Source: Utricularia gibba
Taxonomy: Eukaryota; Streptophyta; Magnoliopsida; Lamiales; Lentibulariaceae
NCBI GenBank assembly: GCA_002189035.1
Contig: NEEC01000002.1
Span: forward strand, 2,728,001 to 2,792,000
Length of the DNA: 64,000 bases
Direction: 5' to 3'
Shown: positions 4,501 through 57,874 of the stretch, in pieces
Numbering within the stretch: position 1 is the stretch's first letter
Layout of the letters: the number at the start of each line of letters is the position of its first letter
Program-made: the position numbers and the translations under genes
The notes under the pieces: model-generated
Told to the model about the DNA's origin: nothing
Seen by the model: only the letters and a program-made list of their open reading frames with translations
Databases searched by the model: none

Positions 4501-4600
4501 CCAACCTCCTCTTCGTCGTCGCTCGCCTCTCGCCGCCGCATCTTCAACGACAGCTTGGCGTCCTCCGGATCACTCTCGTACTCAACTTCCCCTCCGCCAT
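1562..4600 (-). CDS. MLN51: MLN51/CASC3 (Barentsz) exon-junction-complex protein, 9 exons, frameshift at start
   Basis: This is the plant homologue of MLN51/Barentsz, the exon junction complex subunit that clamps eIF4A-III on spliced mRNA. Coding exons on the reverse strand are 4600-4093, 3738-3636, 3544-3327, 3220-2409, 2287-2173, 2078-1959, 1843-1788, 1707-1662 and 1589-1562. The acidic N-terminus (ESDPEDA, then RRREASDDEEE) leads into the SELOR/Btz core (VPRAGAFYMHDDRF, RRLWESKDEKKWGHDKFEEL, then an RG-rich RGIRGRHRGRGR stretch). The conserved plant tail has MQFGGQHPGGMGVPAVGMAF and LPVLAGAAGALGA. All phases agree and give about 668 aa, close to the family size. The only ATG at the right place (4600-4598) is one base out of frame: the G run at 4592-4589 has four G where five would give a start of MAEGEVEYESDPED type. 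No in-frame ATG exists before the upstream stop. Identity is certain; the start is inferred. Confidence 0.93.
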
Positions 4601-4699
4601 CACCGGCAAACCAACAACAGAACAAAAATAGCAGTACAAATCACAAAGCAAGCGCCTCTATTACCTGTTCCTGGAAACCCCGAGATCCCTTACCCCCTT

Positions 4700-6650
4700 C
4701 AGGTAATCTAAAACCGACTACAGGATAAAATTAATGTGTTTGAATTTGATATATGATTTTATTTGAAAATTATTAATAAAATATTAAAGTTTTATATTTT
4801 ATTTATAAAATAAAATTTAACTAAACACTTGTCAATGTTAACACTTTAACGTCTATTATTTTCTTTCTTATTTATATTACAAAATATCTTTCTTTATAAA
4901 TGAAATATTTCTCAGGATGTATTTGCTTTGAATAAATTGACATATCTAAATAAAATTGAAATTAGAATAGGAAATTGTGTTTATTTCATAGAAATATTAT
5001 ATAGGAAAGGGATATCTTTTACTAAGAAAATGTTTTTTAAAATCATATTTAGTTAATAAATTAAAATTATGACAGAAAATCTTTTTATAAGTGATTATTT
5101 TTGTAAAACAAAAATTACGTACTTTCTTATAAAAACGATACAAAAATTACCTAATAAAATTAATATCAATTTATTTAAAAAAAATTAAAGAAAAGTTTTT
5201 ATAAAGAACAATAATATAAAAGAATGATAAGTGTTGAAGATAAATTGAAAAAAAATCGTAAAAACAAAAACGGTTTTCCATGACTCAAATCTCTGATTAT
5301 CATAATATGATATTAAGGAAGATCAAATTTATTTTATATTACCTATGATATTCAAATCTCAACCCTCCACCTCCCATTATATCTCCAATATACTAAGAAT
5401 TTAAAATCTATTATAATAAGGATATAAAAAATGTGGATTATAAATTTGAGATTTCAAATATTTAGTATATTAAAAATGAAATGGAATGAGTACATGTGGG
5501 ATTTGGAAATACCAAGTGATTTAAGATAAATTGGAATATGTGGGCTTAGAAACAGGTGTATTACAAATTTAGATATTGTTGATGAAGTGTATGTAAAAAG
5601 TAGTCATCCTCAAAATTTTTTGGATTGAATATGTGTGAGAGAGTGGGTGAGTGATCAATTTTGTAAATATTTCAATAAGAAATTAATATCTATATTTTTA
5701 GAAGCTTAACTTTTTGTAATTATTATAATTTTGGATTTAGCTCATGCATGCTGAAGGGAACATTAAAATGGTATTAGTTCTTGAATATTAGGATACCAAA
5801 AAGAAAAAAAAGGAAAATTGAAATTGAATTAATAGGAAAATGTTTGAAAATATGTGTGGTTGATAAATTGAAAGTGAAATAAAAATATTTTTATGAGATT
5901 TGTTTTTGTATAAAAATTATTACACCCTTTTGTGCCTTCAAAAATTGAGAATAAGGTTGTATGAAAGAAGTAAAAGAATAGAAGAATCGAAAGAAAAAAA
6001 ATGAAATGAGCGGATTGAAATGAAGTCAAATAGTTATAACGAACAATTGAGAAAAGAAAATGGTTTCAATATAGGATGAATTAAAAAAGTGACTATACGT
6101 CATAAATTATATAAAAAATCATAACTTTATATATAAATATTTTGTGTTGGTAGTTAAAAGTTCAATATAACATTAAAAAGATGCAACATTATCTAATGCC
6201 AAATGTGATATCGAAACCACACCCTCCTGCATTTGATTTCCCAATTGAATATTTGAAATTTATAATTTTTATTTTCCAAATTCCAAAAATAAAAAATAGT
6301 ATATGATTTTCTTAAAAATCAATTTTCACCAAATCATGATTAACAAGCACACCCAAAGTCACGATAAAGCCCCGAGTGTCGCTCGATCGGTTTTCTTGGC
6401 ACCTATAGGCTGTAGATTATATTTAAATTCATCGTAAAATCATAGCAATATTTTTGCAATAACTCTTTAAATTATGGGGGGAGACGGGAAAGGATTGAGG
6501 ACATGAATGCTTCATTATTTGTACTATGATGTCAACTTTATGAGGAAAATTAATCCAACGTTTGTTTTTATATTTGAAAAAGAGACAATAAAAAACTCTC
6601 GTTAGGGATTTGTTGTTTGGAATCTCCTTCCCTAATCTCTCGCTCGTCTC
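4700..6650. other. AT-rich intergenic spacer, no gene seen
   Basis: This 2 kb spacer separates the divergently transcribed MLN51 and SYS1 genes. It is strongly AT-rich with many homopolymeric A and T tracts. Short ORFs in it have no recognisable motif or codon structure. I see no tRNA, LTR or terminal inverted repeat. The promoters of both flanking genes must lie at its two ends. Confidence 0.6.
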
Positions 6651-6799
6651 CTTCACTGTGACTGCAGAGTGCAGATCGGAGTAGTTGAAGGCTTATCATT
6701 TCCAGTTCCTTCGTTTTGCTGTGGTGGAAACTGTTTGAACCGTGAAATTTGGCATATTCTTGGAAAATCGAAACAGACTGAGGGTAGAAATCGGAAGTC

Positions 6800-7945
6800 A
6801 TGTTCTATGGTGCTGTGGTGTGGGATCCATGGCTGATTGTGGCTCAAATTGTTTCCCTTCAATGCCTGTATTATTTGGGGCTTGGGGTATTTTCCTCTCT
6901 TTTAGTTGGCACTCGGGTCGCCAAGATGAGTCTTGTGTATTTCTTTGATTATGCTACCGTCAACGCATCGACGACTACTGGCTGGTGTGTTATCGTTTCG
7001 TTTTTTCTCAGCTGTATTGCTGGGTGAGTTTTCAGTTGCTTGACTTTGTGAGGGTTTTCGTTGATTGATTGACGCGGTCATGAATAAAGTATTCTTTTAC
7101 GATTCATAAGATTCATGTTTGTCTTTTTTCTTAATCATCACTTGAGCATTTGCCTCCCTGTTCCATTCCCTTTTAGTATTCCTAGATAATGGCTGCAAGG
7201 TCCTGATTGGTTTGTGTCCTCATAGTTTAGGAGTATGTTTAAACTTTCTTCGACTTCAACGTTCTCGGTGGAATTTGTCATTGCGTTTCCCAAATCCACC
7301 TTTCCTCATTTTGATGTGGAGTTTACTTGTCTCATAACTAGATGAAACATTTGAAGGACATCGAAGAAGCAGACTTTGTGATCCCTTGTGGTTTTCTTTT
7401 AACCATTATGATGCGCATTTTATGGGTAGAATCCTCGTTTAATTGTTTTCATCATGTATGCAAGTTTGTTTCTTAAAACTGTTTATTGTCATGGTAAGTA
7501 GAAAAAGAGACGATCATGACATTTCTATGTGTTTTCGTTTGTGACAGAGCTGTCTTCTTAGTCTATTTAGTTGAAAGGGCAAAGAAATGCCTTGATTTTG
7601 TGGCAACGCTTTACATCATCCACCTGCTTATTTGCACTGTGTATGGAGGCTGGCCATCCTCAGTGACATGGTGGGTTGTGAATGGCACCTGTCTTGCTGT
7701 TATGGCATTGTTAGGTGAGTACCTCTGCATGAAACGGGAAATGCGAGAAATTCCCATCTCAAGACTTCGAACAAGTAAGCTTTCCCCCTTGTTTTTGAAA
7801 CATTATTGTGTGAAGTGTCCGTTTTTCAGACGCTGTTTTGTTCATCTTCTCAATAATTCATTCCTGGATACTGATGTCAGCGTAAAACCAAGCTCTTCTG
7901 TCTTATTACTTATGTGGGCATTTTTCCTTTGAATCAGGTGCTTGA
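6800..7945 (+). CDS. SYS1: SYS1 homologue, Golgi four-pass membrane protein, 3 exons
   Basis: SYS1 is a small Golgi membrane protein that recruits the ARL3/ARFRP1-type GTPase to the trans-Golgi. Exon 1 (6800-7023) begins MFYGAVVWDPWLIVAQIV and exon 2 (7548-7774) continues AVFLVYLVERAKKCLDF, then YGGWPSSVTWW and ALLGEYLC, all family hallmarks. Four hydrophobic segments are evident. After LRT the frame runs on through intron-like sequence. A GTAAGC donor at 7775 and a CAG acceptor ending at 7937 would add an 8-nt last exon ending Ser-Ala-stop, giving 152 aa, the usual length. The start has ATG directly at the conserved N-terminus. An alternative acceptor at about 7880 also gives an early stop. 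The last exon is therefore less certain than the rest. Confidence 0.92.
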
Positions 7946-8778
7946 TAAACTACCTTTTTGCCTCCGAATCCCTGGTTGTCGTATGAAGTATGCTGACTTA
8001 GACGAGAGATTTCATCAATCCTTTATATACACTATTCTCCTTTGCAAACTGACCATAACAAGTACCAGAGGTCATAAAAGATAAAAATTCTCATGAATTT
8101 GAGCATTAGCTGCAGCATCCCACATAGCAATGGATGTTGAATAATATTCAACTTGCTCTGCAAACCCTGTGCCATATTTATCCATGCTTTAGTATGCTAA
8201 TCTTCTTGCCTGAACCTGCGGCCTTTCCTGAGTTTGATGAATGATTTAGGCTATGTTTTTGAATCATCCTCGACTCTAAACCTGAATGCTCAAATGTGAG
8301 TTTGGCTTGATCCTGCAAAATTACAAGGCCTCTTTGTTATGACTTCTGTTCATAGAAAAAAGGTTCTAGGTTATCCAACGTAAATGATTTTTGTTTCAAT
8401 ATAAAATTTGTCATCTTCTATTGAGGAAATTATCTTCGATACTAATTTTTTTTAAATTTAATATGTGATAAATGAAGTATTGATGATTTTGGAACTTTCC
8501 ATTTGGAGAGGCGGAAGCCTGTTTTTAGGATTGTTCGCACTTGCGCTGGAATAATTCCATGGAAGGATCGAAGAAGATAGGGAGGGTGCAATGCACGTGG
8601 CACATGGGATTATTTATTTATCGCGAATAAAAAGGTACTAGAAGGAAGGATATCGCCGACTTCTGTGTCGTATGCTTCCTCCGTACGGTCAGAACCAAGG
8701 TCGATACGATCAGCCATGGAATTTTATTCACGGAACTCTTGATCTTCTAAAGACGAACGGGGGGCGGTCATCTTGTTT
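7946..8778. other. Intergenic region between convergent SYS1 and purine permease
   Basis: The stretch holds the 3' untranslated regions of the convergent SYS1 and purine permease genes plus unremarkable AT-rich sequence. No ORF with recognisable content, RNA gene or repeat was seen. Confidence 0.5.
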
Positions 8779-9933
8779 TCACGGCTGAGTTAGATCTGAG
8801 CTCAGTTTCTGGTTATCGTCATCCGCGGCGGCGCGTTCTTTCTTCATTTTCCTTACTTCTCCGTAGGAGTAGGAAATGAAGCCCCAGAGACACAGGAAGA
8901 GGGAGATTCCCTTCTCAGGATGGAATTTCTCGCCGTAGATGAGTACGGCAAGGATCTGTGTGATCGGAATCGTCACGGTGATGATGATGCTTGATAGAAG
9001 CGACGACGCGTAGAATATTACTCCGATTACTCCTAGAAAGAAGCATTGCCACACAATCGGACTGAGCCCTAGCAGAATATAGTATCTACTTTCCCCAATT
9101 GACTCCCCTCGCTTCTCTAGGAATCGCCTGGAAAAGAGAAAATCGTCAATCTGGAGTCAATTCCTGTCAAAAATCGTTGACATGGCGGCGAATTTGACCT
9201 GAAAATCGCGGTTCGCGAGCATTGCGACGGTGCAAAAGGCGGTGGCGACGAAGCAGTACACGAGTTGCATCTGGAGAACGAGGGAGTAAGTCATCGTTTG
9301 CTTGGCTTTCATGTACGTTAGTTGCACCAAGGGTAACATGAATCCGTACAGGGCGGCTCCACCAAGAGTCATCAGGAATCCGGCGAGATACTCCCGCCCT
9401 GATTCCCCCGTGGGGCGATCGCCGTTCGCGTGGAGCCCCAGCACCACCGCCCCGGCCGTCAGCAGCACCACCGCGTTCACGGAGTACGCCGTGAACTTGT
9501 GCTTCACGATTAGGTACGAAAAGGTGGAGGTGAACACCAACTGGGTGGCTACAATCAGCTGCGCGGTGGACACCGGCAGCTTGTTGACGCCGTAGGAGTA
9601 CATATAGTTGTCGAAGCCTGTGGCAACTCCGATCGCCACTGCGGCGGCGAGCACGTGAGGCTTCATGAAGAAGCGATCGCCGGGAGGGCGGCGGCGGTAG
9701 GCTACAGCGAGAGGGATGAGAATAATCGGCCATCCTCCGGTCTGTAGCCAGCACGCGAGCCAGATCCGGTGGCCACCCCGGATGTAGTAAAGGCGCATAA
9801 TCAAAGGGCCACCGCAGTTGCCGACGGCTAGGAGAATGCCGTTGAGAGCGAGGAACAGGGTATTCCTCATGGAAGACGGTGGGGCGGCGTCGACCGCGGC
9901 AGCCGAGGAGGAATCTACGTCCATCGGTGGCAT
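8779..9933 (-). CDS. PUP: Purine permease (PUP family), 2 exons, one-base frameshift in exon 2
   Basis: The product is a purine permease, a plant plasma-membrane or tonoplast transporter of the drug/metabolite superfamily that imports adenine, cytokinins or related compounds with protons. Exon 1 (9933-9199) encodes a short Ala/Ser-rich N-terminus and then about seven membrane helices, with the motifs NGILLAVGNCGGPL, YSYGVNKLPVST and TQLVFTSTFSYLIVK. The intron is only 71 bp (9198-9128). Exon 2 (9127-8779) starts AIPREAR and continues, one frame over, ESIGESRYY, WQCFFLGVIGVIF and ISLFLCLWGFISYSYGE, completing about ten helices. The break lies in a G run read as CCCC at 9105-9108; three bases would restore the PREAR-E-x-x-x-GExxYY family pattern. 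Total length about 360 aa fits the family. Substrate cannot be predicted. Confidence 0.88.
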
Positions 9934-10439
9934 GAGCGAGTTTGGATGAGCGGAGTTCCTTTCAGCTTTCTTCCGTTGCTATCCTCTCTCTCCCTATGAT
10001 CTGCGAGGTGAGCCCACTACGAGTCCAGCGTTTTAGTACAGATTGCAAAAGCACACCAAGTTTGACACTCAAGATGAAAAGGAAGAAAGGAAGTTGGCCG
10101 GAGTGTTGTGTAGTGATGCATAGTTCAATCATGCTCAAGGTTGCTTTATTGCCTCTTCGGCCCCATTCGATGACCTCATCGCTGAAATCATCATCTCATT
10201 TTGGGGATACCCACAAGAACAAAAGAGCGGTGCGGTTGCATCAGAAAGACCGGCAACCTTAAGATCAGACACTTGGATTCGATTCAGGATTAAATGACTA
10301 AATAATGAACAGTACACCGATTCTCAGTGTACGGTTCAGGCGAAGCCAAGTCCAACACTCATTGGCTCCTTGGGCCTGACTGGTAAGAGTTGGTGGGCAG
10401 AGTGGTAAGCACATGGCAGAAGTAAATGTTATCCTCCAA

Positions 10440-20418: not shown

Positions 20419-22829
20419 ATGAGAGGGATGAAACGTCCTGCGATCTTCGATTCGACGCCTGACTTCAATTCTAAAGACTCCATTGTAAGTTCTTCTGTTG
20501 TCATGTATTGTTTGCATTTGCTTTACCTATAAGGACGACGAAGGTTGAGCTGATTGGGAGTGCAGCAGACCGATAGATTGGTTTGGCCCCGCCGTTCCTT
20601 GCACCCGCGGCCGAGCAATCGCTTCAGCGGCCGCCCCTTGATGTGCAGAGAGCCGAATCTTCAAGGCGGCATGTCAGAGCTCTTAATAACCAGTTCGCGA
20701 AGTTAGTATAATGTTATGTTGGTTTTAACCTTCCCAGCTTCTTGCTCAAGCCTCCGTAATTTTTTTCACTCTTCGTATAAAATTTTGATTGCTGCTTTTT
20801 TATGGTCAAGGCTTAATTGGCCTTTCGGTTGGGAGTTAGCTTTAATGCTAATTTGTCTCCGGAATGGGGTCGACTCACTGTTAGAGCCCTACGATTTTAA
20901 TTGTGATGCCTTTTTTTCTGTCTCATTTTGCAACTGCAAATTGCATCTTTTCTGGAATATTAATGCAAATGCTCACACCGTAAACCTTGACTTCGTCAGC
21001 TGGATACAAACCCAATTACAGAACCATCCTGACGAGCTGTGGGAAGATGGAGTGCAGGACTATTTAAATCATGCTAAAGGCATCATGGTAAGCAAAGGTT
21101 TCTTTTTTAATTATTCCACGCTCAGGATGCTGCAAGCACTGTAAATTTCTGATTTTAAAACTATCATGCAAAAATTCAATTCATTTTCTCTTCAACTGCA
21201 GGAAACTTTCAGTGATATTGTTGGTTGGATGAAAGCAAACAAATCGATTGTGAGTGCCGGAGAACAACATCCTGCAGATGCTCAAGTTAAAATCACTTCA
21301 GAAAATGATGAAAGCAGTCGATTAGAAAGACCTGACCTTCCTAAAGTTGCAACAGGAAGTTTTGGGGCTCCATGGGGTCAGGAATTTTCAGTAACACTAA
21401 CAATGCACCATTCTCATTTAGAGGTATTCTTTTCGCTTGTGCTTTATTTGATACCCTGTGTGGCATCTGCTGATGCTGTTCTGTTATTTTGGTGTTATTT
21501 TCTGCTTGATTCATTGTGATCGCAAATAGTAATGTGTATTATTCTTTTTGGTTATCTTAACTCTCTTTGATTTTTCTTGTCTCAGGGTCTGCTACTTCAG
21601 TTCCCTCAAATGATGCAGCTTCGAATGAAGCAGATGCTGGTACGATTCAATTTTTTTTTTTTCTGCTTTGATCTATCACACAATGCAAACAATTCTGCAC
21701 ACTAACCTAGATCATCAGAAGAATAACTATCATTCAACGTTTAGTTATTTCATTTTACTCTCGTAGTTCAGGATATTAGTATGTCATAGATACTTCATGT
21801 TTTCTTACGGTGTTTTGCTCCATTTTTTTTATCCAAATTATGCAATCATTCCTTGGTGTATCACTGCATAAAATGTCTTGCAATATCAATACGTTAAGCA
21901 GTTTCTGTTTTTTGTAACTTGTTTCAATCCAGATGATGGAATCGAAGCTCCAAGTAGCCCATCTTTGAAAAGAAGTGAAGAGAGCGGAATAACAACTGTG
22001 CACGAAGTAAAATGTAAACTTTACATAAAGGTAAATATCCTTACATTGCATGTTATTGGGAGTCATGAAATGAAACATATATTGAGGCTCGGGAACTAAT
22101 GGTAGGATATCTCCTAGATGTTTGGTTTTCTTAGTGAATACGATAAGGAAATACTGATGTATGAACGTTTGTTGGAAAATGCTTGATTTTCTTTTTCCGG
22201 TGATTTTCTGCCGTGTGCTCTAACTTTCTTGATTGCATCATATTTCTCCAGTCAAGTGATCCAGCGGATAAAGATGCTTGGAAAGATAGAGGCATGGGTC
22301 ATCTAACCATCAAATGCAAGGAAGGATTTGATAAGGGGACCAGAGAATCTAAACCCTCCATTGTCATGCGCAATGATGTCGGTTTCACTCCTGTTTGATT
22401 ATTGCAGGTTGTTGTGTTTCTAATATGCTAAACACATATTTCTGTGCATACATTTCACTTGCTGCAGGTGGGGAAACTTCTGCTTAATGCATCGTTGTAT
22501 CCAGGCATCAAAACAATTTTGCAAAAGAACTCTATAGTTGTAATACTCCATACGGTACGGCTCCTACACTTGTTTGTTATGCTCTACCATTTTCTTGTTC
22601 CATTTTGGGTAGTTGTAATCCTATGTCGTAAGCATGAGAGTTAATATGCGCAGCACCAATAAAATGCTTCACTGTGCCATCATTTTAGCATTGTTGTCTC
22701 ATTGTTATGAAGGCCGATAGCGATAAGAGCGATACTGCTGTTGCCCACACCTTCCTGATAAGAACCAAGAATGAGGAAGCCCGGGACAATCTTGCAGCTG
22801 CTATTGCGGAATGTGCTCCTGCAGGTTGA
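20419..22829 (+). CDS. RanBP1-domain, NUP50-like nuclear pore protein, 9 exons, frameshift in exon 4
   Basis: The protein resembles plant RanBP1/NUP50-like factors (At4g11790 type) that bind RanGTP at the nuclear pore. Exons are 20419-20484, 20577-20701, 21000-21087, 21202-21423, 21586-21639, 21933-22030, 22252-22377, 22468-22554 and 22713-22829. The N-terminus MRGMKRPAIFDSTPDFNSKD is followed by RAESSRRHVRALNNQF, NHPDELWEDGVQDYL, an FG-like linker and the C-terminal RanBD (TVHEVKCKLYIK, WKDRGMGHLTIKCKEGF, KPSIVMRND, GKLLLNASLYPGI, AHTFLIRTKNEEARDNL). Exon 4 changes frame once: after FGAPWG the next frame reads SGIFSNTNNAPFSF and matches all later exons. One more G in the GGGG run near 21373-21378 restores a 327-aa protein. 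The exon 7 donor is an unusual GTCGGT. The gene is divergent from MFAP1. Confidence 0.87.
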
Positions 22830-32482: not shown

Positions 32483-34077
32483 ATGCAGGGAGGCAGACAT
32501 CCGTTTTTTAACTTCGGGTGTCCTTTAGGCAGTTTTGGTGGATTCCCTGGCTTTGGCGGACTCGGCGGTTTTGGTGGCTTTGAAGACCCAAGGAGTCTAA
32601 TGTCTAGCATTTTGGGTGGACATGATCCATTTGACGATCCATTTTTTGCTTCTCCTTTTGGTTCAATGTTTGGTTCAGCTTTTTCCCGTTCTTCTGGATT
32701 TGCTTTTCCAGAAATCCCTAGATTTATTGGTCATGAGCCATCTGTGCCCACCGCTTGAGGGGGCCTGTGATTGAGGAGTTGAGCTCAGATGATGAGGAGA
32801 GCAGGAAGGAGGGAGGGGATATTCCAGGGCATATTGTCCATGAGGCTCTTCCGTCTCGCTGTTCCAGGGGGCCAATAATTGAAGAGTTGAGCTCAGATGA
32901 TGAGGGCAGAAAGGAGGAGGAAGAGAAGTGCGCGAACAAGAATCCAAGAAAGCATGGCAGATCAGTGAAAGAGCCTGCTGTAGAGGGTCATAATGATGAA
33001 TCTCGTGGTATGTTGTGGTCATCATTACCTTTATGGTTGCTCTGGCTTTATTCGTTCCTTTCCGATTTTGATGTTTCCATTTTATTGCAGAGAAAAAGAA
33101 GAAGTATACCTCAAGTCTCATGAACCATGCGCATGAGTTACAATCACAGCCATTCTCGCACAGTTTTTGTTTTCAAAGTTCGACTGTTTCGTACGGTGGT
33201 GCAAATGGTGCATACTATGCTTCTTCAAGAACAAGAAGAACAGGAAGCGATGGAGTAATGCCCCTTTCGCAAATTTTAGGTTTCTCCTTGCGTTTTGTAT
33301 GTTTTTGATACTCACTTGTGTTATAGTTGATGTTTGAGGAATGCAAAGAAGCTGATTCATCCATTCGTGAAGCTACTCACAAAGTGACTAGGGGGATCCA
33401 CGACAAGGTATTGCTTCTCAATCCTCCTCCCAATACATTATTTGTATGTGACACTTTACCTTTTTATTCATGGTTCAGGGTCATTCCGTAACTCGGAAAT
33501 TGTCATCAGGCGGCCACGTGGACACAATGCAGACACTTCACAACTTGGATGGAGGTAGTTTTTTAGTCTGTTAGAGAATGTACCATGCCAATCCAGTAGG
33601 TTTTTCAAACATCTGCCGTTTCATACTTAACAGATGATCTCGTTCACTTCAATAAAGCATGGAAGGAAAATGTTGGAAAGCATCTTCCTTTATATCAAGA
33701 TCAAGGTAATAAGATCACACCCTTCTTTGGCGTGCTTTAATTTTCTTCTTCGGGGCATTATGCATGGTTGCAAACTAGGAATGAAATGCAATATTGCTTT
33801 ACCATAGGTCCCATGTTGTTAAACATGGTTTCGCTAACTCATCTCAGGCTCTTACTGCGGCCCAATTCTTGAAATTTCAGGGTCCAGAGATATTCCTAGC
33901 CAACAGCATCCTCACAGTGTTGGCTGGGCACTCCCTTCGACAGAGAGATCACATATTTCAGAATCGAGAACCACAGCACCTCCCACTCTGCACGCGAAAC
34001 GCAATGCCAATCACATAGCCAGGGCATCGGGGTCGCAAACAGGTCATGCTGCCTCTCGTTTTCAGCATCAAGGATAG
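32483..34077 (+). CDS. Myeloid leukemia factor (MLF1) family protein, 6 exons, frameshift in exon 1
   Basis: The protein belongs to the conserved MLF family, whose animal members shuttle between nucleus and cytoplasm; plant function is poorly defined. Exons are 32483-33007, 33091-33254, 33327-33407, 33479-33554, 33634-33705 and 33881-34077. The N-terminus is Gly/Phe-rich (MQGGRHPFFNFGCPLGSFGG, HDPFDDPFFASPFGSMFGS). An acidic region with GP-x-IEELSSDDE occurs twice. The MLF core follows (FQSSTVSYGGANGAYYASS, RTRRTGSDG, FEECKEADSSIREATHKV, RGIHDKGHSVTRKL, DTMQTLHNLD, FNKAWKENVGKHLP) and a tail with GWALPSTE. A TGA at 32756 interrupts exon 1 because one base is missing just upstream; one extra C in CCC at about 32747-32749 restores a 371-aa frame. 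Leader and first exon are probably separated by a 5' UTR intron. Confidence 0.85.
32732..32945 (+). repeat. Near-tandem duplication of about 108 bp inside the MLF-family exon 1
   Basis: Two diverged copies, starting at CATGAG 32732 and CATGAG 32839, each encode HE-x-x-x-P plus RGP-V/I-IEELSSDDE. The upstream halves are 107 bp apart and the downstream halves 108 bp apart. This shows directly that copy one has lost a single base. The unit was in frame when it duplicated. Confidence 0.7.
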
Positions 34078-37646: not shown

Positions 37647-37949
37647 TGTTGATTAAAAAAAAATAGAATCTTGATAAGAAACAAATGGATAATACTTATG
37701 AGATCAACTTGGATGAAAATTGACTCATGAACAATAAGAATAACTGAAAATCTAATTCATACGTGTTCCTAGTAGTGTTTATATATACCCAATACCTAGA
37801 TTATCCATCAGTGGACCACAATCATTAAAAACACACAGAAAAGCCTAACTACTCGAACCCAACACTTTTTTAATTAGAACATGACTTTATGATACAAGAT
37901 TAGTGCTTCCAATCATTTTCAAGCTTTGGATTGAGGATGATCTCCAACA
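37647..37949 (-). repeat. 3' LTR of the copia element
   Basis: A 303-bp repeat starting TGTTGATT and ending CTCCAACA on the forward strand, aligned end to end with the copy at 41731-42030. The G/A tract (CCCCCCC on the forward strand) immediately inside it at 37951-37957 is the expected polypurine tract. Confidence 0.9.
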
Positions 37950-39839
37950 CTCCCCCCCAAACCGAGATCTCCCAACTTGAGAAAGTCTTCCATAGTCATG
38001 AGATTCATGTTCTTCCTTGCTAGCTCAAATTGAACTCTGTTCAAATTTTTGATGAGCCCATCATCAAACTGATTCCCACTCTCAACATACTACACTTTAA
38101 TCTTCTTCTCCTTGATGTAATTCTTTATAACATGATACCTGATTCTTATGTGTTTGGCTTTGCTAAAGTTTGTTGGATCTTTAGCAATGGAGATTGCAGC
38201 TCGATTATCCATAAGCAGATATGTAGCTTCCTTCTAAATGAATCCAAGTTCGTTTAACATTTATCTCAACCAAACGCAATAGTTTGAAGCATGTGTTGTA
38301 GAGATGTATTTTGCTTCAGCTGTTGGTTGTGCTACCACCTTTTGTTTCTTCGAAAACCAGACTACATGGCTCTTATTTAAGAAGAAGAGTGCACCAGATG
38401 TACTCTTGCTATCTTTAGCCATACTATAATCACTATCTGAATAGGCTCTAAGTTTGAAGATTGGTTTTTTACCTTCATAGGGATAGAACAATCCGAAATT
38501 AGTATTAGATTTTATGTACCTGAAAGCTCTTTCCACAACAGCCATGTGAGTTGTTGGATTGCTGAGGAAGCGAGATAAGACATTTACACAAAAACACAGG
38601 TCAGGCCTTGTATGCTGGAGATAGATGAGGCTTCCAATCATACTTCTATAGGTATTAGCATCCACATTTCTTCCCTGGTTGTTTTCTCCAAACACTTGTT
38701 TGTAATCCAAAGGAGTTTTTGAAGGATTGACATCTTTGAACCCAAACCTTTCAAGAAGTTCATACTTCTTCAAGAAGATGACTGTTGATAAGTCTTCTGC
38801 ATTCGTGCCTTGCTCCTCTTCTAGAACTCTGAAATTCTCATCTGAATATTGATCATTGGCCTGATGTGATTGTTCATATAAGGGTTCTGAGATTGATTCT
38901 GAATTCTCATTGGGTGAGTCGTTTTCATTTGTGACCTTCTCCTCTTCTGGAGGTGGAGAATGCTCATCTGAATACTGATCATTTACTTGATTTGAATCTT
39001 CATGGAAGAGTTCTGAAATTGATTTTGAGTTCTCATTCACCTGTATATTTTCAATTCTATCTTCAGTTTCTTGGTTTATTGAATTCCTGGAAGAGATGTT
39101 TTGAGGCATGTGTGTCCAAAGGTCATCTTTCACGTGAGTGTTATGCCCTTCAAGATTTTTATGAGCTTCTGCATCATTCATAGAAATGCAATCATCAATC
39201 AAAGTGTACTTTACACCTTCATCAAAAGAGACATCATAACTAAAGATGAATTTCTTCTGGTCAGGTATATAAACTTTGTATCCCTTGGTAGTGTTGCTAT
39301 AACCAACAAATACACTAGGTACATATTTCTTATCAAGTTTTCCTCGTTTTTGGTTTGATACATGAGTAAAACACAAATTACCAAAGATTCTGAGATGATC
39401 AATCTTTTTAATATAACTATGCCATTTTTCACGGCGATTTTTCCATTAATTGCCCTAGAAGGAAGCAAGTTCAATAGATATACAGATGCAGATACCGCTT
39501 CAACCCAGAAATTTACAAGAAGATCTTTCTCAAACAATAGGCATCTTGACATATCAAGAATTATTCTGTTTCTCCTTTCACATATACTATTCTGTTGTGG
39601 AGAATATGGTACTGTGAATTGATGAATGAATCCCTCATTTTCACAAAACATTCTCATGCTATTATTGTAGAATTCACCTCCATTGTCTGAACTAATCATC
39701 TTTAAGGAGCATCCACTCTGATTCTCAATCATCACTTTGAATTTTCGAAAGATATGAGAAACTTCTGACTTGCTTTTAAGAAAGTAAACCCAAGAATAGC
39801 GTGAATAATCATTAATGAATGTAACAAAATATCTACTCT

Positions 39840-39854
39840 CCCCCCCCCCCCCCC
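39840..39854. repeat. Poly-C tract of about 15 inside the integrase region
   Basis: A run of about fifteen C (G on the coding strand) splits the integrase coding region between the GAG-pre-integrase part and the catalytic core, where family members have a short Gly-containing junction. It looks like a homopolymer expansion after the element died. Confidence 0.7.
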
Positions 39855-41718
39855 AAATGAACATTCCTTAAATGGTCCACAAACATCGCACAAGTTCTAA
39901 TTTCTCCTTTGCTACTGAATCATTGAAATAAAATGGCTTTCTACACTGTTTACTTTGATGGCACACTTCACATATAGCATCAGCAAATTTGATATCTTTC
40001 AATTCCAGTACTTCGTTATTCTTCTGCAATATTTTCAGATTGTTGAAGCTATAGTGCCAAAGGCTGCTTTGATTTTGAAGTGAGAAAATAAAACTTTTAT
40101 AATCACTGACCATGATTTGGTTGAGGTTGTAGGTGGTCAACACAGCATGGAATTCAATCTTTGTTTTTGGATCAATAACTTTAACTTTAGCGGTTATACC
40201 ACAAGCATCCTTCATCAGCTCAATGTTAAAAACGTGCCTGCTCAATTGACCAAAGCTCAATAGATTCTATTTGAGGTTTGGTGAATAATAAACATCATCA
40301 ACTTGAACAATGACTTCTTTTAGCACGAGTAAAATGCTTCCTTTGCCCATAATGCCAATATTTTCACCAGTGCAAGTGCTTACCTCATTCCCAATCTTTT
40401 CAAGCTGGAGAAATGATCTTGTATCACAACATACATGATAGAAGTCACCAGAATCCAAGTACCACCCTTTAGCATCTAAGACTACTATCATTAGAACACA
40501 CTCATAATAACAAGGATCTTCAAAAGATATTTTTGGCTGGTCTTCAAAGTAGGTAAAGGATGCATGTGATTTTTCATCCTTGGAAGTAGTCTTCTTGTTA
40601 TGATCAACTTTGATTGGATTAGACATTCCACATACCTTGTCAAGATGGCCTCTTTGATTATATTTTGTGCACGAAACATCAGGCTTCCACCAACAAAACT
40701 CACTCCTGTGATTCTGTTTGTTGCAATGCTTGCAAGCATTTGTGTTTAAAGTCCAACAATATTCACTCTTGTGGCTGGATTTATCACAATGCATGTACTT
40801 CTGATTACCCATAATTGAAGTTGGGATTGACATTGGTGATTGTTTGAAGGCTGTTGACTTGACATCATCGACATTGTTAGTTGCACCTGAGTTTATATTC
40901 ATATTCTGCATTTTGGTGAGAAGAACAGCTTCAACATAAATTTTCTCAACCTCATAACCATCTCTTAGTTCCAATCTCTTTTCTGGAGATTGAAACTCAA
41001 TCATGAACTCTCTAAATGTTGGCTCTGGTGTAACATGATATTCAGGATACAGCTGATGGAGTTTTACTTCAATAATGTCAAGGATTTTTCTTTCTGTCTC
41101 AAATGCACATAACTTTGGCTTGAATCTTGCAGGTAGGTTCGTGATTGCCTTGCTAATCACCTTTTTATCCTCAAGTTTTTCCCCCAATCCTCGAATATCC
41201 TTCACAAGCTTCACAGTACGTTCATAATAGACTTGTATGGTTTCATTGTCTAACATTTTGTTCATCTCGAAGTCCTTCAGCTTGTTTTTGCATATTATCT
41301 CTCTGAGTTTGACATCACCATCATAATGGGATTTGAGAGTATCTCATATTTCTTTCGTTGATTGATACTTTGCAATATCATCAAATAGATGTTCAGAAAT
41401 AGCTTGACATAAGGCATCAATTGTTTTATCTTTTCTCTGTTGAAGATACTCAACTTCTTCTTGCTGTTCTGGTTTAGATTTGCTTGTTACTGTAATAGCC
41501 GGTATCTCTCTTTCAACAACATCCCAAATCGAAGGTAGCTATGCATCTTTTTGACCCAACTTCCATACTCAGAACCATCAAATATCAGAGGCCCCCTACC
41601 AGATGCCATCATAGCCATCATTTGACAAGCTTCGGGTTGATATTTGGCAAACCACAAAGTGAAAAAGGCTAAACGGTAAATAAAATATTGAAATGAACAC
41701 AGGTTTGAGAACGTTACT

Positions 41719-41730
41719 GCTCCGATACCA
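41719..41730 (-). other. Primer binding site (tRNA-Met type)
   Basis: On the reverse strand TGGTATCGGAGC follows the 5' LTR with no gap. It differs by one base from the usual copia site TGGTATCAGAGC, which pairs with the 3' end of initiator tRNA-Met. Confidence 0.8.
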
Positions 41731-42030
41731 TGTTGATGCAAGAAAGATAGAGTTTTGGGAAGGAACGAAGTGATAATGCTTATGAGATCACCTTGGATGA
41801 AAAACGACTCATGAACAATAAGAATGACTGAAAACCTAATTTACACGTGTTTTTAGTAGAGTTTATATACTCAATACCTATGTTAACCATCAGTGGGCCA
41901 CAATCATTAAAAACACACAGAAAAGCTCAACTATTCGAACCCAACACTTTTTAACTAAAACATGATTTTATAACACAAGATTAGTGCTTCCAATCACTTT
42001 CAAGCTTTGGATTAAGTCTGATCTTCAACA
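41731..42030 (-). repeat. 5' LTR of the copia element
   Basis: A 300-bp repeat starting TGTTGATG and ending CTTCAACA on the forward strand. In element orientation this is the upstream LTR and would contain its promoter. Confidence 0.9.
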
Positions 42031-42682: not shown

Positions 42683-44795
42683 CTACTTTCCGGGGATCAC
42701 TGTATTCAAGTCTCCGACCACAGTGACCATGGACGGTCTGTTTTCCGGCAATGGGCTGGTGCAGTCCAGGCCGATTTTAACTAGCCGCGCGGCTTCCCAT
42801 GGCCGGAACCCTGGCTCCTGGTTGGGGCCGATGAGCGCCTCCCATTCTCCGGCCTCCGCGGAGGCTCTTGCTGAGACAGAAATTATCTTCTTTCCGGAAA
42901 GAACCTGAAGAACAATACCCCCAAATGCGTAAACATCGGTCTTCTCCGTAAACCTGCCGGTGGTGACGTACTCTGGCGCCATGTATCCCAAGGCGGCGCT
43001 CGCTTTCAGCGCTGAGTATACGACGTCGTCTGCTAGAAGATTCAAAACTCCAGAGTCGAGAATCAGTGGCTTCCAGTTCTCGTCCAGCACTACTTTTTCA
43101 GCGGATATGTTCTTGTGAATGAAACGCGGTTTCCCTGGTTCGTCTCTGTGAAGATACTCTATACCATTTGCTATTCCTTTGATGATGGAGATTCTTGTAG
43201 GCCAATCAAGGAGCTTACTGTTTTTATGATCATCGAGGTACCTGCACAAACTACCCTTTGGAGCAAATTCGTAGATTAGGAAGCATTCTCCTCGATCTCT
43301 GGAGCAGCAATATCCCTTCAAACTCACGAGGTTTTCATTGTTGAGTGACTTCAGTAATCCCAGTCCTTTGATGAACGCATCTTCCTCTGTTTTGCAGCTC
43401 ATTTTGTTCATAGTCTTGATTGCTACAATGGATCCATCCCTCACAACCCCCTTGTACACTGCTGTGAACTTGCTCTTCCCCAATAGATTCCTCTCTGAGA
43501 AATGTTGGGTTGCTGATTCAACCTCGTCCAGGTTGAACTTGTATCCCAAATGCGAGCCTTCCCATGACGAATCAAAGAATCTTTTGGTGAATTCTTTGAC
43601 TGGTTTTTGGCTTGGTGAAATCTCAAGTGAATCAGTGTTGTTTCCTTCTCTGGGCTTCAATTGCTGAAGCATGAAAACCGATATGAAGATCACAGAGGCA
43701 GCAGCTACGGCTGCACAAACAAGGGATCCTATCACAATTCCAATCTTTGGGAATCTTGATGACGACTTAAGAGGTGGTTCTTTCGTGAAATTCACTGGTT
43801 TAGGGATAGTGATTGAGGGCGCTTCTGGAGATGAAGCAAAAACTGGACTGGCAGTCCCACTATCCCACAAGGAACAAGCTCTTAGAGAAGGGAAACCAGA
43901 GCCACATAAACCAGTGTTGTTTCCAATGTTTAAGCCTTCCTTCATTCTCAAAAAGCCTTCATCATCAAGAAGAGTGTAAAGTGTTATCAAGATCTGTTAA
44001 ACCTGGGATTCATTAAACAGAGATCAAGAACTCACCTCTAGGAACAAATCCAGAAAGGTTGTTGGTTTGAACATCAAAAACTTCCAGAGATGGAGTGCTA
44101 GCAAGTTGGGATGGAATCGGACCAGTGAGCTGATTGAAGCTCAAATAGATCCTGTTCAGTGTCCCTGATTTCGCTAAGCTTACAGGGATATCCCTGTTAG
44201 TTGATTACGTTCTAATGCAAGAACTGTCAGCTTGTTCATGAATCCTAATGTTGTAGGTATCGTCCCTGTTAAACTGTTGCAGCATAACTGCAGAACTGCA
44301 AAATTCGTTTGACATTTTCAGTTGCTTTAAATTTTTACTTGCTCATTTGCAGGAAGTTTACTGACCTTGAAGGTTGGGCATGCTCCCAATTTCAGGGGGG
44401 ATAGTTCCAGTAAGATTATTGACATCCAGATAAAGATCTGTCAACTCAGTAAGATTAGCAATCCCTTTGGGAATCTCCCCACTTAAAGCATTGTAGTGCA
44501 AGTAAAGACCGGTGAGGTATTTGAGCTCCGCCACCGCAGGGGGCACTTTTCCGGTGAGGCCTTTTCCCTGGAGGGAAATATTGACCACTTTCAGGCGCTC
44601 ATTGCAAGCCACGCCCTCGAAAGTGCCTGCGCAGGGATCACCGTCTGGCTTCCACGATGACAAGTACTTGTTTTCTGGGTCAAGAGCGGCCTTCATCTCC
44701 ATCAACGCACTGAGCTCTGAGTTCCCCCATGTGAGCTTCGTTGTAAAAGAATAAACAAGAAACACAGTGAAGAGGAAGCCCTTAGGAATCTGCAT
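42683..44795 (-). CDS. LRR receptor-like pseudokinase (At5g51560-like), 3 exons, frameshift and odd acceptor
   Basis: A membrane receptor-like kinase with a signal peptide (FLFTVFLVYSFTTKLTWG), an LRRNT region (SALMEMKAALDP, SSWKPDGDPCAGTFEGVAC) and about five leucine-rich repeats. A juxtamembrane GLCGSGFPSLRAC motif, one transmembrane helix near residue 300 and an intracellular kinase-like domain follow. Exons are 44795-44366, 44295-44036 and about 43983-42683. The kinase domain keeps the VAIK lysine and the APE motif. It has HKN in place of HRD and DSG in place of DFG, so it is probably catalytically weak or dead, as in its relatives. Exon 2 is broken after NQLTG: the GGG at 44194-44192 should be GGGG. 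For exon 3 the acceptor that keeps frame is AA instead of AG. With one base restored the model is 663 aa. Confidence 0.85.
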
Positions 44796-45835: not shown

Positions 45836-47139
45836 TCACCAAGAACTCTTCTTCTTCTTCGAGTCACTGTAACTAAGATACCAAGTCACAAACTTCTTCA
45901 GCCCTGTCTCCAAATCAGTAGTCGGCCTATAACCAAGCTCAGTTGCTGCTAAACTGATGTTTGCGTGCGTGAACAGAACATCTCCATTTCTCGGCAACTG
46001 CAAGACCTTCCTTTTCGCCTTTACCTTCAACAGTTTCTCCAAAATGCTGACAAGCCTCCATACTGGAACAGGGTTGGTGTTCCCCAAGTTATATATTCGA
46101 AATTGCGCTTCACCGTGCTTCTTCCCTCCACTTCCAGTGCTCTTCTTTGCAGTATCGAGTGCAGCTAAAGAGCCCTTCACTATGTCATCAATATACGTGA
46201 AGTCTCTAGCAACAGTAGCATGATTAGGGCCTTCAAAGATCTTGATCTCTTTCCCTCTGAGTATATCCTTGGTGAAGAAGTAATACGCCATGTCGGGCCT
46301 CCCCCAAGGTCCATAAACAGTGAAAAATCTCAAACCCGTGATTGAAAGCCCGTAGATATGGTTATAAGTGTGAGCTATTTCCTCACCAGCCTTCTTGGTG
46401 GCTGCATACAGACTAGCAGGCTGATCAGTTCTATCCTTTTCGGAAAAGGGGACTCTTGAATTGAGGCCATAGACAGAGCTTGAAGAAGCCCACACAACGC
46501 TCGGCTGCGGATTTTCATTTTTGCATACTTCCAGTAAGGTAACAAAGCCATTGACATTACTCTGAAGGTAAGAAGTGGGGTTTTGCATTGCATACCGAAC
46601 TCCGGCCTGGGCTGCCAAATGCATTACATGGGTGAAATGCGCAATTTGGAAGAGCTTGTTCAACAAATCGGAATCATTGATATCGCCTTCGACGACGTGA
46701 ATGCCTCTGCGCTCGAGAAGATTTTTCCGGGCTCTTTTCAGGCTTGTTTCGTAGTAACTGTTGAAATTATCAAGCCCAACGACGCCATCCCACGTCTCCT
46801 GAGCGCAATGGAGACATGGGTGCCAACAAAACCAGCAGCCCCAGTGACCAAAACAGTAAACCCAGAACTAGAAATGGGTCGGGCTGATTTCCGGACTTTC
46901 ATCTCCCAGTTGGCCTTAATATCGCTCGTGTGAAGGCTCCGGCGTTTACCGGCGGAGGAAGACGCCGGCGGCGAACATAGGAATAAAAGCAATATAAATG
47001 ATAGAAAGAGGGAGGACCAAAGAGTAAGCTTCGGGCTGAAACGGACACGGTTGAAGGCATACGGCGATGACTTGAATTTCCCCGGCGAAGATGGAATGAT
47101 GGGGTCCAAGTGCGAAAGCATGGGCTTCATTTGCGTCAT
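45836..47139 (-). CDS. GAE: UDP-glucuronate 4-epimerase, single exon, one-base frameshift
   Basis: GAE is a Golgi type II membrane protein that converts UDP-glucuronate to UDP-galacturonate, the precursor of pectin. After the start (ATG at 47139, with others at 47130 and 47121) come HLDPIIPSSPGKFKSSPY, a membrane anchor (LTLWSSLFLSFILLLFLC) and the NAD-binding GxxGxxG of VLVTGAAGFVGTHVS. The catalytic ASSSSVYG and YAATKK (YxxxK) follow, then GLRFFTVYGPWGRPDMAYYF and VARDFTYIDDIVKG. The gene is intronless, as is usual for the family. The frame breaks after LRRRG: the G run at 46791-46789 has three G, and four would give RRRGDGVVGLDNFN as in relatives. Restored length is 434 aa. The second part reads open from there to the stop. 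Confidence 0.92.
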
Positions 47140-50597: not shown

Positions 50598-51121
50598 TCA
50601 ATTCAGCTGTCTGGCTTTGCGAGCACAGTCGGCAAAATCTTTGACAAACTGGGCGCACTTTAAAGGGGCGTCGGCATGCTGCTTATAGCAGTTGGTACAT
50701 GCGTCCTTCTCATTCAAACATGGCATCGGCTTGCGATTTGGGAGCTTAAATTCTTTATCATGAAGATCCTTAGCTCTTTGAGTGACTTCATTTACCATGT
50801 TCTCCTCTCGTTTCTGAAGTTTCTCCAAGACCTGTTCACTTTCCTTGAGGACAGTGCGGATGGCATCTATCTCAGGATTCACGGGGTTCTGAGTTACAGC
50901 AGGAAAGTACGCGGGAGGAGGCTGGAGGGGCCATCCACCGGAAAGTGGATCATGAAGTTTCTTCAAATCATTGGATGGCAGATTTTGTTTTGCACCTTCT
51001 GGTTTGTGTTCCTGAGCAGTCTTGGTTTTGGCTTCCTAGTTTTCTTTTTTACCGGTTCAGTTTCACTGAGCAACTTTCTGGCCAAGCGGCTGCTGATATG
51101 AACCGTAAATGGTTCATCCAT
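50598..51121 (-). CDS. Twin CX9C (CHCH) mitochondrial protein, one-base frameshift
   Basis: This is a small plant CHCH protein, probably of the mitochondrial intermembrane space and oxidised by the MIA40 pathway. The C-terminus has the twin CX9C pair: C-LNEKDACTN-C and C-AQFVKDFAD-C, joined by YKQHADAPLK. Before it lies a coiled coil (ESEQVLEKLQKREENMV) and the family stretch VTQRAKDLHDKEFKLP. The start is ATG at 51121 (DEPFTVHISSRLARKLLSET). The frame then breaks: an A run at 51029-51026 of four needs five for the downstream frame (AQEHKPEGAKQNLPSNDLK) to follow. Restored length is 174 aa. It resembles MIC19/CHCHD3-like proteins only in general layout, so a MICOS role is not claimed. It is divergent from the DnaJ gene. 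Confidence 0.83.
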
Positions 51122-52203: not shown

Positions 52204-55200
52204 ATGAGCAAGAATGGAGACCCGGACAACAAGCAGCTCTATGCGTTGCTCAATGTGTCGCCGGAAGCATCCACGGAAGAGATTCGAAGGGCTTATCGCC
52301 AATGGGCGCAAGTTTATCATCCGGACAAGTACCAGTCTCCGCATGTATACAACTGATAACTCCTTTTGGTTTACTACCTTTTTGTTTTCAATTTTGATGA
52401 TTGGGTTGCAATTTTCTTGTATGCCTCTTTCGAGGAAGTTGGGTTGTTGTGGGTTAACGTTGCTGGTAGGATCTCATTGCTGTAAGGGTTTGTTTTATCA
52501 TGAAGATTTAGGAGAATTAAGTAGTTATGATCTTTTAAGGATCAGTTTCTATTGCAATTATGCAGATGAAGGACATTGCAACAGAGAATTTTCAACGTGT
52601 ATGTGAAGCTTATGAGATTTTAACAGATGAAAATAAAAAGGACTTTATATGATATATATGGAATGGAAGGCCTGACTTCCGGATTGGAGCTAGGCCCTAA
52701 ACTGAGCAAAGTTGAAGAGATCAAGGAAGAACTCGAGAGACTGAAACGCCTGAGAGAGCAAGAAAAGTTTTCTGCACGTACGCGTTCTACTGGTTCGATT
52801 CTGGCAAATTTATCATGGCCTAGTTTTTTAGATGGAGATGGCCTTATGAGAGGGTATGATCACAAATCCTTGTAATGTCTTACTGAAGATGCTCTTGTGG
52901 GTTGTATATGCGTGCATTTACATTTCTTGTAAACCATCATATTGACTCCATGCCAACTTAATTTTTGAAGGGTGTAGTAAATTCGAATATCTTGAAGTAT
53001 TGCTTATGCATTATATCTTCGTAGCTCAAGTTCAGCTCTCTTGTTATCAGCGTGTATCTTGAGATAATTGACTTTACTGGTACTCCTTTGTTTTCTAGGA
53101 TGGGTATGGCTAGTGAGTTTCAGTCTCAAGTATCCAAGGATACTGCTTTGGTTATTGGTGGTAATTTGGCCGTTAATTCTAATGCTGGTGGAGGTGCAGC
53201 AACTGCAGTTCTCAGGCATCAAATTTCTCCAGTTTCATCATTGGAATTGATGGGCTCCATGGGGCTTCAGTCACTAATAGGAGCACAAACATCTTAGTAA
53301 TATGTTTTTCAATTCTGAGAGAATTTCTTATTCAGTTTAGATGCATTTATTCATTTTCATTTGGATTCTATTGACAGCCAATTATCTGTTCACTCATCGG
53401 CAACAATGGGTGTTACAATGTCATTGAGAGATGGCTCACTGAATCTCTCAAACACCTGGAGCCGTCAGCTCTCAGAAACGACAACGGAAATGTATGCTTA
53501 CCCATTTGGATTTATTACTCTTTGCTTGTGGATTGTAGAATGATCTATTATGGTGTTCCGCTATAGTTCTATTTATTATCTGATAATGGAATGACTTGTT
53601 TACTGTAATTATCAACATCAAAAAATTTGGTGTCTGGATTGGGGTTACTATCATGTTAATGCATTGATTAAAAGTATAGGTGTCTGTTTTCCTTTTTTAT
53701 TGTGTACTACTTTTTTTATTTATCTCAGATACAACTTTCCTTGGGTCCGGATTCATCCATTGGCATTGGGTGGAGAATGAAGGAGCAAAAAAGGTCTGCT
53801 TCGGGAGAGGTCAAGGTGAAAATTCTATGTATTGTGAGACAGTTCTGCTTGTTATACACTTTCTCGCCAATTGAAGCTCATTTTCAAATGATTAATACTT
53901 TCAGTTAGTGTCAGAGTTAATGAATGTCTTATGAATTTTTTTCAAAACTCTTTAGATTGGTACAAATTCATTCGGAGCAACTGCACATTACACCCATCAC
54001 TTCTCGTCAAAATCACATGGACGAGTTTCTGGCTTGGTTGGAAGGTTGGTTTGTTGCTAGTATTTCTGTATGCGTATAAATATGTTGATAAACGAATATT
54101 TGAACTGTGTTCAATATGAATTGCTGTCCTGAAAAACTCTGATGCGTTATGCATTTTGCAGCAACGGACTTGCACTTGAGATTGGGGGTGAAGAAAGATA
54201 TCTGAATTAAGCACTGTTCGGATGCTATATTCAATTGGGCTGCAGGTCTGAATCTATATGTCACATAGCAATTATCTTTATGGATGTTCATGGTAATGCC
54301 AAAACTTATTCCATATCCAATATGCGATTTTCCATTTAAGATGACTTGTCTTTTAACAGGGCCTGGTTTGGAAATTTGAATTGCACCGTGGTGGGCAAAA
54401 GTTGGTCATTCCTGTAAGCGCTTGAAAGTGATTAAAATGCGGGGTTTTGATGTTTGTTTGCTGTTCTGTGTGATTTGATCCTTAGAATATTTCCAGTAAG
54501 ATGGTATTTTTACTTGCAGGTATTACTGTCCAATGTTTTGAGTCCGGCTTTTGCAGCAGGAACTTTCATTGTTCCAGTATCTCTTTATTTTTCCCTAAAG
54601 GTTCGTTAGTTGAGCATCTTCGCTTCTTCAATCAAACCCTGCTGCCTTTTTTTTTTTCTTTTTTTTTTCCTATGCCAAATGAAAATTGGTTTGATTAAAA
54701 CTTTTTTACGTTGATGCTTAACAACGGTTGCTTATGAGGTTTGATGGTGATGATTCCCACCTAATGCATTTCAGAAGTTGGTTTTGAAACCATACTATCT
54801 TAGACGGGAAAAGAGGGCTGCATTGGAGAACACTGAAAACACAAGGAACCAGGTATGGTGATCAAGGTTTTCTTTTTGCAAATTGCTTATCCATTGAGAC
54901 TCGGATTTTCAACTGTTGTTCAACCTGAATCTTGAAATGTTCCTTTGCCTGAGCTATTTAAAGGTGCAAGAGTCGATGACAAAAGCCAAAAAGGCTCAAG
55001 AACTGCTGAAGAATGTTGCTGAGAGGAAAAAAATAGGCAACTGGAGATCAATGGGTTGGTTATACTTAAAGCAGTTTATGGCAGTCGCAAAGCCATTTCA
55101 GATGCTCAAAAATCAAAGGAAACGCAAGATGAAATAGCACTCCAAATCATCGATGTAGCCATACCTCTTACATTTCTTGTAACCGATTCAGGGGAACTCA

Positions 55201-55525
55201 AGGTATTCTCCTGCTCTGCTGTTCCTGTTTATGACGGCTGCATTCCAGGGATACTCAGAAATCTCGTATTTAATTTCTTTCGGCAGCTACACGACGGTAT
55301 AAAAAAGTCCGGGATTATGGGGTTTTGTGATCCTTGTCCTGGAGAACCAAAGCAACTGCATGTTGAGTATGCCTATGGTAGCAAGAAATACGAGGTAGGA
55401 GATCGTTATCTTCTGTATGCGTTTGAATCTAATTTATTGATTGACTAGATGTTGCCACTGATCTCCAGGTTGCCGTTGATGATTCTAATGAGTTACGAAT
55501 ACCCCAAGAAAGCCACCGAGTTTGA
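52204..55525 (+). CDS. ATJ13: ATJ13/OWL1-like DnaJ protein (DNAJC11 family), 13 exons, four one-base frameshifts
   Basis: The homologue of Arabidopsis ATJ13/OWL1, a J-protein with a DNAJC11-type C-terminal domain involved in very-low-fluence light responses. Exons are 52204-52344, 52566-52853, 53099-53296, 53378-53491, 53729-53815, 53956-54044, 54162-54245, 54360-54413, 54520-54600, 54775-54852, 54964-55202, 55287-55394 and 55469-55525. The J domain has HPD in [13 protein letters not shown]. Later blocks are [72 protein letters not shown] and RIPQESHRV. Splice sites are canonical, but the frame fails at four places: AAAAA at 52635-52639 (one A too many), GG near 53486 (one short), GTGAAG near 54189-54192 (one G short) and A7 at 55027-55033 (one short). 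Correcting all four gives one continuous protein. It is either a recent pseudogene or an intact gene with sequence errors. Confidence 0.85.
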
Positions 55526-55769
55526 GCATACAGTTATAGGCAAACTCTTTAGATAGGAAGTTTGGACTTGCAGCTTCATCTCTTCAACGCCAAAGATTTT
55601 TGATCGAGATCTTCGTCAATAAGTCATTTGGGTGCATGTGTTTTCAACCTTGTGCTCACATTCGATATCTGACCGATGAAAGTGCTCTCGTACAGCATTA
55701 TTATCTTTATGATACATTGCTTGGAGATACTGTTGCTGTTCATTTCTCCAGCAGAGCATGGAGCATCAA

Positions 55770-57874
55770 TCACCCCAACCAAGGGCTGTCCTGAAACGAA
55801 CAATGGGCTCCTCTGCGAGGCCACTCTGCATCCACTGGTCTTGCAAACACCGGGCTCCATGTTGTGGTTCCATCTTCGTATGAGTTGTGGGTGATCCGGT
55901 GGATGTCAGATCCATCAGCTTTGATCACAAAAACATCGCCATATGGCTGAAAATGATGTGGGTTGGAGATGGGTTCTGCTGAAACTCCGGCATAATCGGA
56001 GACGAACACAATGTGTTTTCCATCTGGGCTGAACCAGGGGTGGTTGATCCGACCACCGGTGCCACTCTGCATCACCTTGTGAAGCCCTGTTCCATTAGGG
56101 TGAATCTTGAAGAGCTGGAAGCTTTCTGAGTCGGGATCCTCCCGGTTGGAGGAAAACACGATCCAATCTCCATCCGGCGACCAGTTACACATGGTGTCCG
56201 TCCATGGACCTTCAGTTAAGCGCTGCAGCTCTCCGTTTTCGCCATTTACGGCATCCATGATGTAAAGGTTCTTGTGACCGGAACGGCCCGACCGGAAGAC
56301 GATCCATCTTCCGTCCGGCGAGGGTGACGGAAATGCATTGTTCCTCCCTCCCAGGGACAGAATTTTGTAGCTCGAACCTTCGCCGTCCACATCAACTGAA
56401 ACAATGTTGACTTCAGCGCTCTCTTCGGCGAATATAGAGCCTACGCTTGTGTAAACCACGCCATTCCTTTTCGGATCCCACGCGGTGGCGAACGCCGGTC
56501 GGTTCAGCACTTGGCGAAGACCGGTGCCATCGCTGTTCATCACATAGAGACCTGAACCCGCATACGAGTCCGGCTCCGTCGTCAATTTCACGAATGCGAT
56601 CCTCCGACCGTCCGACGAGTACGACGGAAACGACCCGTCGATCTGAACCAGCGACAAATTCGGAATCGGGCTCCGAACAGTCTCCACCAGTAGATCGCTG
56701 CTCCTCGCATTTTCCGTTGCTCCTCTGCACTTATGGTACCCGACTGTTAATGAGTCGGGCGAGATAAACGGGTTGAAATGATGGGCACTGGGTGTAATGG
56801 ACCGGGTCGTGAAGATAAAGCTCTTCGAAACGATGTCGTACAGCTCCACGTGTCGAAATTCGGTGCCACGCCTCCTCGTCACCACGGCAATGAAGCTGGT
56901 GTTGGCCGGAGATGCCGCCGGTGTAAAAGCATGAAGACCGGGTCTCGTCACCCGTTCAACGGAGACGGATCTCGCATTGGGTTCATCTCCACTGATCGAA
57001 AATGAAGCTGTAAAAATACTCCACCAACCATCTTCACACCGCCTATGAAAATACAGCGTCGAATCATCTGCCCAGCTCGGCCAACCGCCGTGGTCTACGA
57101 TCTTGATTCGCTTCGATCCATCTTCCGTCAGGAAGATATAGATATCTGTACCCAATTCCTCGATCTCCCCTGCCAGCCCTTCTCACCGTACGACGCTACC
57201 GCTGTCCAAACCCCGGACGGCGAAACGGCGGGACTGAAATCTGCCACCCCTCTCGGCGTCAGCCGCCGCGTCGAGCCGGTGGGGAGCACAGTAGAGTATA
57301 CCGCCGTCCAGCTCTCTCGAGGCTCACCCGGATCCTCGTGAGTTGAAACGTATATCAAATTTTGCCCAACCAAGCTCGGCCGGTCCTTCATCGAACGGCC
57401 GCCGCCGGAATGTTCATCTCCGATCAGAAGTATCTGACTCCGTTTCGATTCAGCAAGCGAACGAAACCCAACCCGTAATATATCCGGGTCCTGGTAGAGA
57501 TCCGACCCTGAACCACTGGACACAATTGGGGCTTCTTCTTGAACGGAATCCAAATAAACCCCCGAGGACCCATTCCGCTCCGATACGTAAACAACATGAG
57601 TTGCCTGCACAGATGGAGCAGGCGATCGGGGGAGCGACGAAATTGACGACTTGGACGGAAAATAGCCGTTAAAATTGATGGACACGCCGTCGGTGAGGCG
57701 GGTTTCTTTGAGTGAACCAGACGTCGCAATTGAGTAGATGTCGAATGAGTAACTGGATCTCAACCATGTAGCAAAGGCAATGCTGCTCCAACCACCACCG
57801 TCCTCCCAGGAGCTCGGAAGCGCGGAAGCCGTGAATACGAACAGGAACCAGCAAAAAACGCTGGTGGTCTTCAT
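55770..57874 (-). CDS. TolB-like beta-propeller secreted protein (At1g21670/At1g21680-like), single exon, one-base frameshift
   Basis: A predicted secreted protein of about 701 aa with a signal peptide (MKTTSVFCWFLFVFTASALP). It has repeated TolB/WD40-like propeller blades: RLTPRGVADFSPAVSPSGVW, AFPSPSPDGRWIVFRSGRSG, MCNWSPDGDWIVFSSNRED and HPWFSPDGKHIVFVSDYAG. Each blade carries the PDG-x-x-IVF-x-S pattern. Members of this plant family have no firmly assigned activity. An ATG fifteen codons upstream (57919) is possible, but 57874 leads directly into the signal peptide. The frame breaks once after EKGWQG: the run CCCC at 57167-57170 (GGGG on the coding strand) should have five, after which EIEELGTDIYIF follows as in relatives. 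The gene is convergent with the DnaJ gene, 245 bp between stops. Confidence 0.86.

Follow-up and report, generated by a model that had tools for sequence, protein, structure and literature searches.

Among described systems, those closest to the present locus are the indel errors of long-read-only assemblies and the pseudogenes that arise after gene duplication. Long-read indel errors are the target of correction tools (PMC12007338); correction of a PacBio mouse assembly with Quiver and Pilon reduced the count of transcript placements affected by frameshifting indels from 8,566 to 335 (PMC6553538). The Utricularia gibba assembly (101 Mb, contig N50 3.4 Mb, with unitig_8 at 6.8 Mb) was made with HGAP from PacBio reads at 88x, and the last step of HGAP is Quiver polishing (PMC5793159, PMC8333044, PMC6265445). 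The DNA analysed here, referred to as the window, is a stretch of 64,000 bases, C451:2728001-2792000, in a plant assembly of 100,091,633 bases and 516 contigs; contig C451 itself has 6,822,880 bases.

Three-frame translation of the window locates a reading-frame change in all nine genes named in an earlier note, at or a few bases from where that note had placed it (Table 1). Twelve break sites had been counted; 11 are found, and the difference lies in the DnaJ gene, which has three instead of four. Most breaks had been described as losses, and nine of the 11 indeed read as −1. The further claim, that they lie mostly in short G/C homopolymers, holds in part: seven of the 11 can be placed in G/C runs of at least three bases, although the placing is partly a matter of choice where the exact base is ambiguous. 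Runs of this kind make up 7.5% of the sampled coding bases, yet take 7/11 breaks (binomial 3e-6). Gene names are backed by domain matches for GAE, the LRR kinase, the purine permease, MLN51/Btz, the TolB-like PD40 gene and DnaJ/DNAJC11; the RanBP1 match is below the cut-off, the CX9C piece has weak matches only and the MLF piece has no Pfam match, so that these names are those of the earlier note.

Table 1. Reading-frame breaks in the window (window positions).
Gene	Position	Strand	Break and basis
MLN51 (CASC3/Barentsz family)	4586..4592	-	G run that follows ATG GCG GAG; lacks one base for the conserved VEYESDP frame
Purine permease (PUNUT)	9105..9108	-	second exon changes frame, by +1 or -2
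RanBP1-domain/NUP50-like	21370..21378	+	one base short in or near GGGG run; frame pieces 21289-21378 and 21378-21425
MLF family	32746..32752 (~32749-32752)	+	CCC run one base short; paralog comparison
LRR receptor kinase	44189..44194	-	run of 3 (CCC at 44192) vs 4 (CCCC) in C2 duplicate; LRRNT_2, LRR and kinase domains on both sides
GAE (UDP-glucuronate 4-epimerase type)	46787..46792	-	run of 3 (CCC at 46789) vs 4 (CCCC) in C2 duplicate
Twin-CX9C-like small protein	51020..51029	-	one A/T short (TT at 51024 vs TTT in C2 duplicate); frame pieces
DnaJ/DNAJC11 type, site 1	52632..52641 (~52633-52637)	+	+1 in A run; frames 52566-52640, 52639-52854
DnaJ/DNAJC11 type, site 2	54180..54192 (~54182-54192)	+	-1; frames 54169-54207, 54192-54245
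DnaJ/DNAJC11 type, site 3	55025..55033 (~55026-55032)	+	-1 in A7 run; frames 54964-55032, 55032-55202
TolB/PD40 beta-propeller	57166..57172 (57167-57170)	-	CCCC run one base short; PD40 domain match

The breaks are very likely residual single-base consensus errors, mostly short-homopolymer losses, of a long-read assembly that was probably PacBio-only and of the HGAP/Quiver type; most of the broken genes are very probably intact in the living plant. The errors would stem from sequencing and polishing, and the same cause presumably applies at sites that have no supporting duplicate or paralog. Like the indel errors known from long-read-only assemblies, the breaks are one-base shifts in runs, spread over many genes and accompanied by few substitutions; unlike those errors, many of the window runs comprise just 3-4 G/C bases, here judged from the assembled sequence alone. 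No paper on Quiver and deletions in G/C runs came up in a literature search. The artefact is of an already known kind, an ordinary data-quality problem that involves no new biology.

The most direct comparison comes from a duplicate block, C2:1030001-1110000, in which seven genes align with the window in the same orientation and with 70-91% DNA identity. The LRR kinase, GAE and twin-CX9C genes had each been read as one base short, and in each case the run in the C2 duplicate is one base longer. In GAE, the piece downstream of the break matches the epimerase domain PF01370 from profile position 16 onwards. A further one-base difference in the LRR kinase, at 43962, was set aside, as this position is intronic and near an acceptor. 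For the TolB and MLF genes, the shortfall of one base proposed earlier is borne out by paralogs that keep a single frame. The TolB paralog (L054, on C375) is open from before the site to after it; the MLF paralog (L061, on C98) runs in one frame through LRGPVIEEL, where the window shifts from frame 3 to frame 2. The longer run or open frame in the copies at these five sites favours error over decay. At the RanBP1/NUP50-type site (~21373-21378), the loss of one base agrees with a single line of support, namely splice-phase closure with the next exon at ~21588.

Some breaks might instead reflect mis-read gene models, in which alternative splice sites, wrong starts or unusual introns take the place of base changes. 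For the set as a whole there is only a very slight chance of this: the GAE and TolB breaks each fall within a single continuous coding exon that is matched on either side of the site, and the run lengths in the LRR kinase, GAE and CX9C genes differ from those of the duplicate. Two sites give this explanation some substance. The MLN51 gene, in which the Btz domain (PF09405) is matched, does contain the frame break that had been attributed to one missing G; however, its C2 duplicate likewise lacks one base in the frame opened by the same ATG, and carries one further one-base loss, so that error is not singled out. A break common to both duplicates counts against random error unless the run is error-prone, and going by the two sequences the site would represent either the same error made twice or a start codon wrongly assigned. 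The purine permease matches PF16913 in its first exon, and its intronless paralog L057 holds one frame. Comparison with paralogs upholds the frame change in the second exon, but the one extra base proposed for it is less definite, since +1 and -2 both fit. There is an in-frame AG acceptor 13 bases further downstream than the expected one, and its use would also restore the frame.

The order of domains and the splice phases, for which GT/AG junctions were identified by eye, gave the sites in the DnaJ gene. The J domain is matched, and a DnaJ-like_C11_C domain follows directly after site 3. Three of the four sites claimed earlier are recovered; the fourth is unneeded, as the remaining exon phases close at GT/AG junctions. 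A candidate for it at ~52850 was dropped, a phase-2 junction closing at that point. A DNA search of the genome found no second copy of this gene.

The principal alternative is that the breaks are real: recent loss-of-function mutations would have struck copies made redundant by two genome duplications, and several genes would be young pseudogenes. The U. gibba genome has indeed undergone two recent duplications as well as contraction (PMC8333044), and, as expected of post-duplication pseudogenes, it holds duplicate copies, several window genes among them. Pseudogenes are recognised by relaxed selection together with nonsense changes, a combination seen in neither GAE nor the LRR kinase, the genes with a duplicate that the selection tests cover. 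Past its break, GAE has a dN/dS of 0.056 between window and C2 duplicate; for scale, the unbroken genes MFAP1 and IRKI give 0.073 and 0.084. Values for the LRR kinase are 0.20-0.27, on both sides of the break. The CX9C gene gives 0.68 past the break, from 23 codons, a sample too small to judge. No coding stops occur in the codons compared between the duplicates; a lone stop in each LRR kinase copy proved not to be coding and came from intron bases taken into the comparison. Amino acid changes are not clearly more numerous in the window copy of GAE, with seven residues specific to the window and five to C2.

GAE and the LRR kinase thus continue to evolve as functional proteins, and this persistence of purifying selection again favours error over decay. 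Unlike post-duplication pseudogenes, the broken genes lack stops, have low dN/dS where tested and show similar rates on both GAE copies; moreover, the DnaJ gene has three breaks in spite of having no detected duplicate. Low dN/dS alone cannot rule out very recent breaks, but these are disfavoured by the number of breaks and their genome-wide spread. Taken with the evidence below, real loss of function has a small chance of being the explanation.

That spread was assessed in a census outside the window, confined to conserved domains, in which frame shifts were read from the coordinates of adjoining matches. It covered KCS, HSP70, GAE paralogs, polyubiquitin and histones, and found 14 breaks in 76.8 kb (0.18 per kb), all 14 net -1 modulo 3. 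KCS genes contribute three breaks in 28.3 kb; one broken copy also bears in-frame stops, a point in favour of decay, and may be a true pseudogene. HSP70 genes have six breaks in 32.0 kb, of which two at one place on C255 are less certain and one is common to a twin contig; GAE paralogs have three in about 7.5 kb. In a polyubiquitin gene at C255:2252733-2253879, two -1 shifts flank units 97-100% identical to ubiquitin. Counting against the error reading, three other polyubiquitin genes are open, and none of 13 histone H3/H4 copies is broken. The recurrence of one-base net losses across the genome, polyubiquitin and HSP70 genes included, nevertheless favours error over decay. The earlier judgement that independent decay of so many genes is unlikely is thereby strengthened, given also the constraint on GAE and the LRR kinase.

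The window itself is denser in breaks: its coding sequence, estimated at 19 kb, holds 11, or about 0.6 per kb, some three times the census figure. At the census rate 3.5 would be expected (Poisson P about 0.001, with the 19 kb again an estimate). This excess counts against a plain error reading; it could arise in part from search sensitivity, the census being limited to conserved domains, or from local quality or low coverage.

Contigs that cover the same DNA offer a further view. Contig C81 (37,439 bp) repeats part of C451:6670001-6677000 and is probably redundant. Over 6,936 bp of overlap, the two contigs have no substitution and two one-base differences, both in A runs. This disagreement makes consensus error in the assembly directly visible, and a difference in homopolymer length alone once more favours error over decay, although it lies elsewhere than the window sites and in longer A runs than most of the window G/C runs. 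The claim of uncorrected homopolymer error in place of decay is accordingly supported at five sites by the runs or frames of duplicates and paralogs, and further by selection, by the census and by this contig pair. A second pair, the HSP70 twins at C241:14001-20000 and C304:2234001-2240000, differs by 16 substitutions in about 1 kb and by none in the remaining 3.5 kb. By match coordinates, both twins carry the same frame shift; the clustered substitutions make the pair unsuitable as a yardstick of error. There is hardly any chance that some run-length changes are real and that the plant tolerates or corrects breaks in many genes, with slippage during translation or transcription as one conceivable route.

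By the census, a break would occur about every 5-6 kb of coding sequence; most of these breaks are probably false, and at this rate an appreciable minority of genes could receive a wrong call. Anyone counting gene losses or pseudogenes in this assembly would arrive at too high a number unless short reads or transcripts are used to check the calls. The truncated U. gibba DCL3 was considered as a victim of such errors and rejected, the truncation being reported to have the backing of RACE and RNA-seq (PMC8333044). Elsewhere in the window, positions 37647-42030 hold the remains of a Copia-type retrotransposon, whose LTR-like repeats are 83-91% alike and spaced about 4.08 kb from each other; a run of 15 C lies within this stretch, at 39840-39854.
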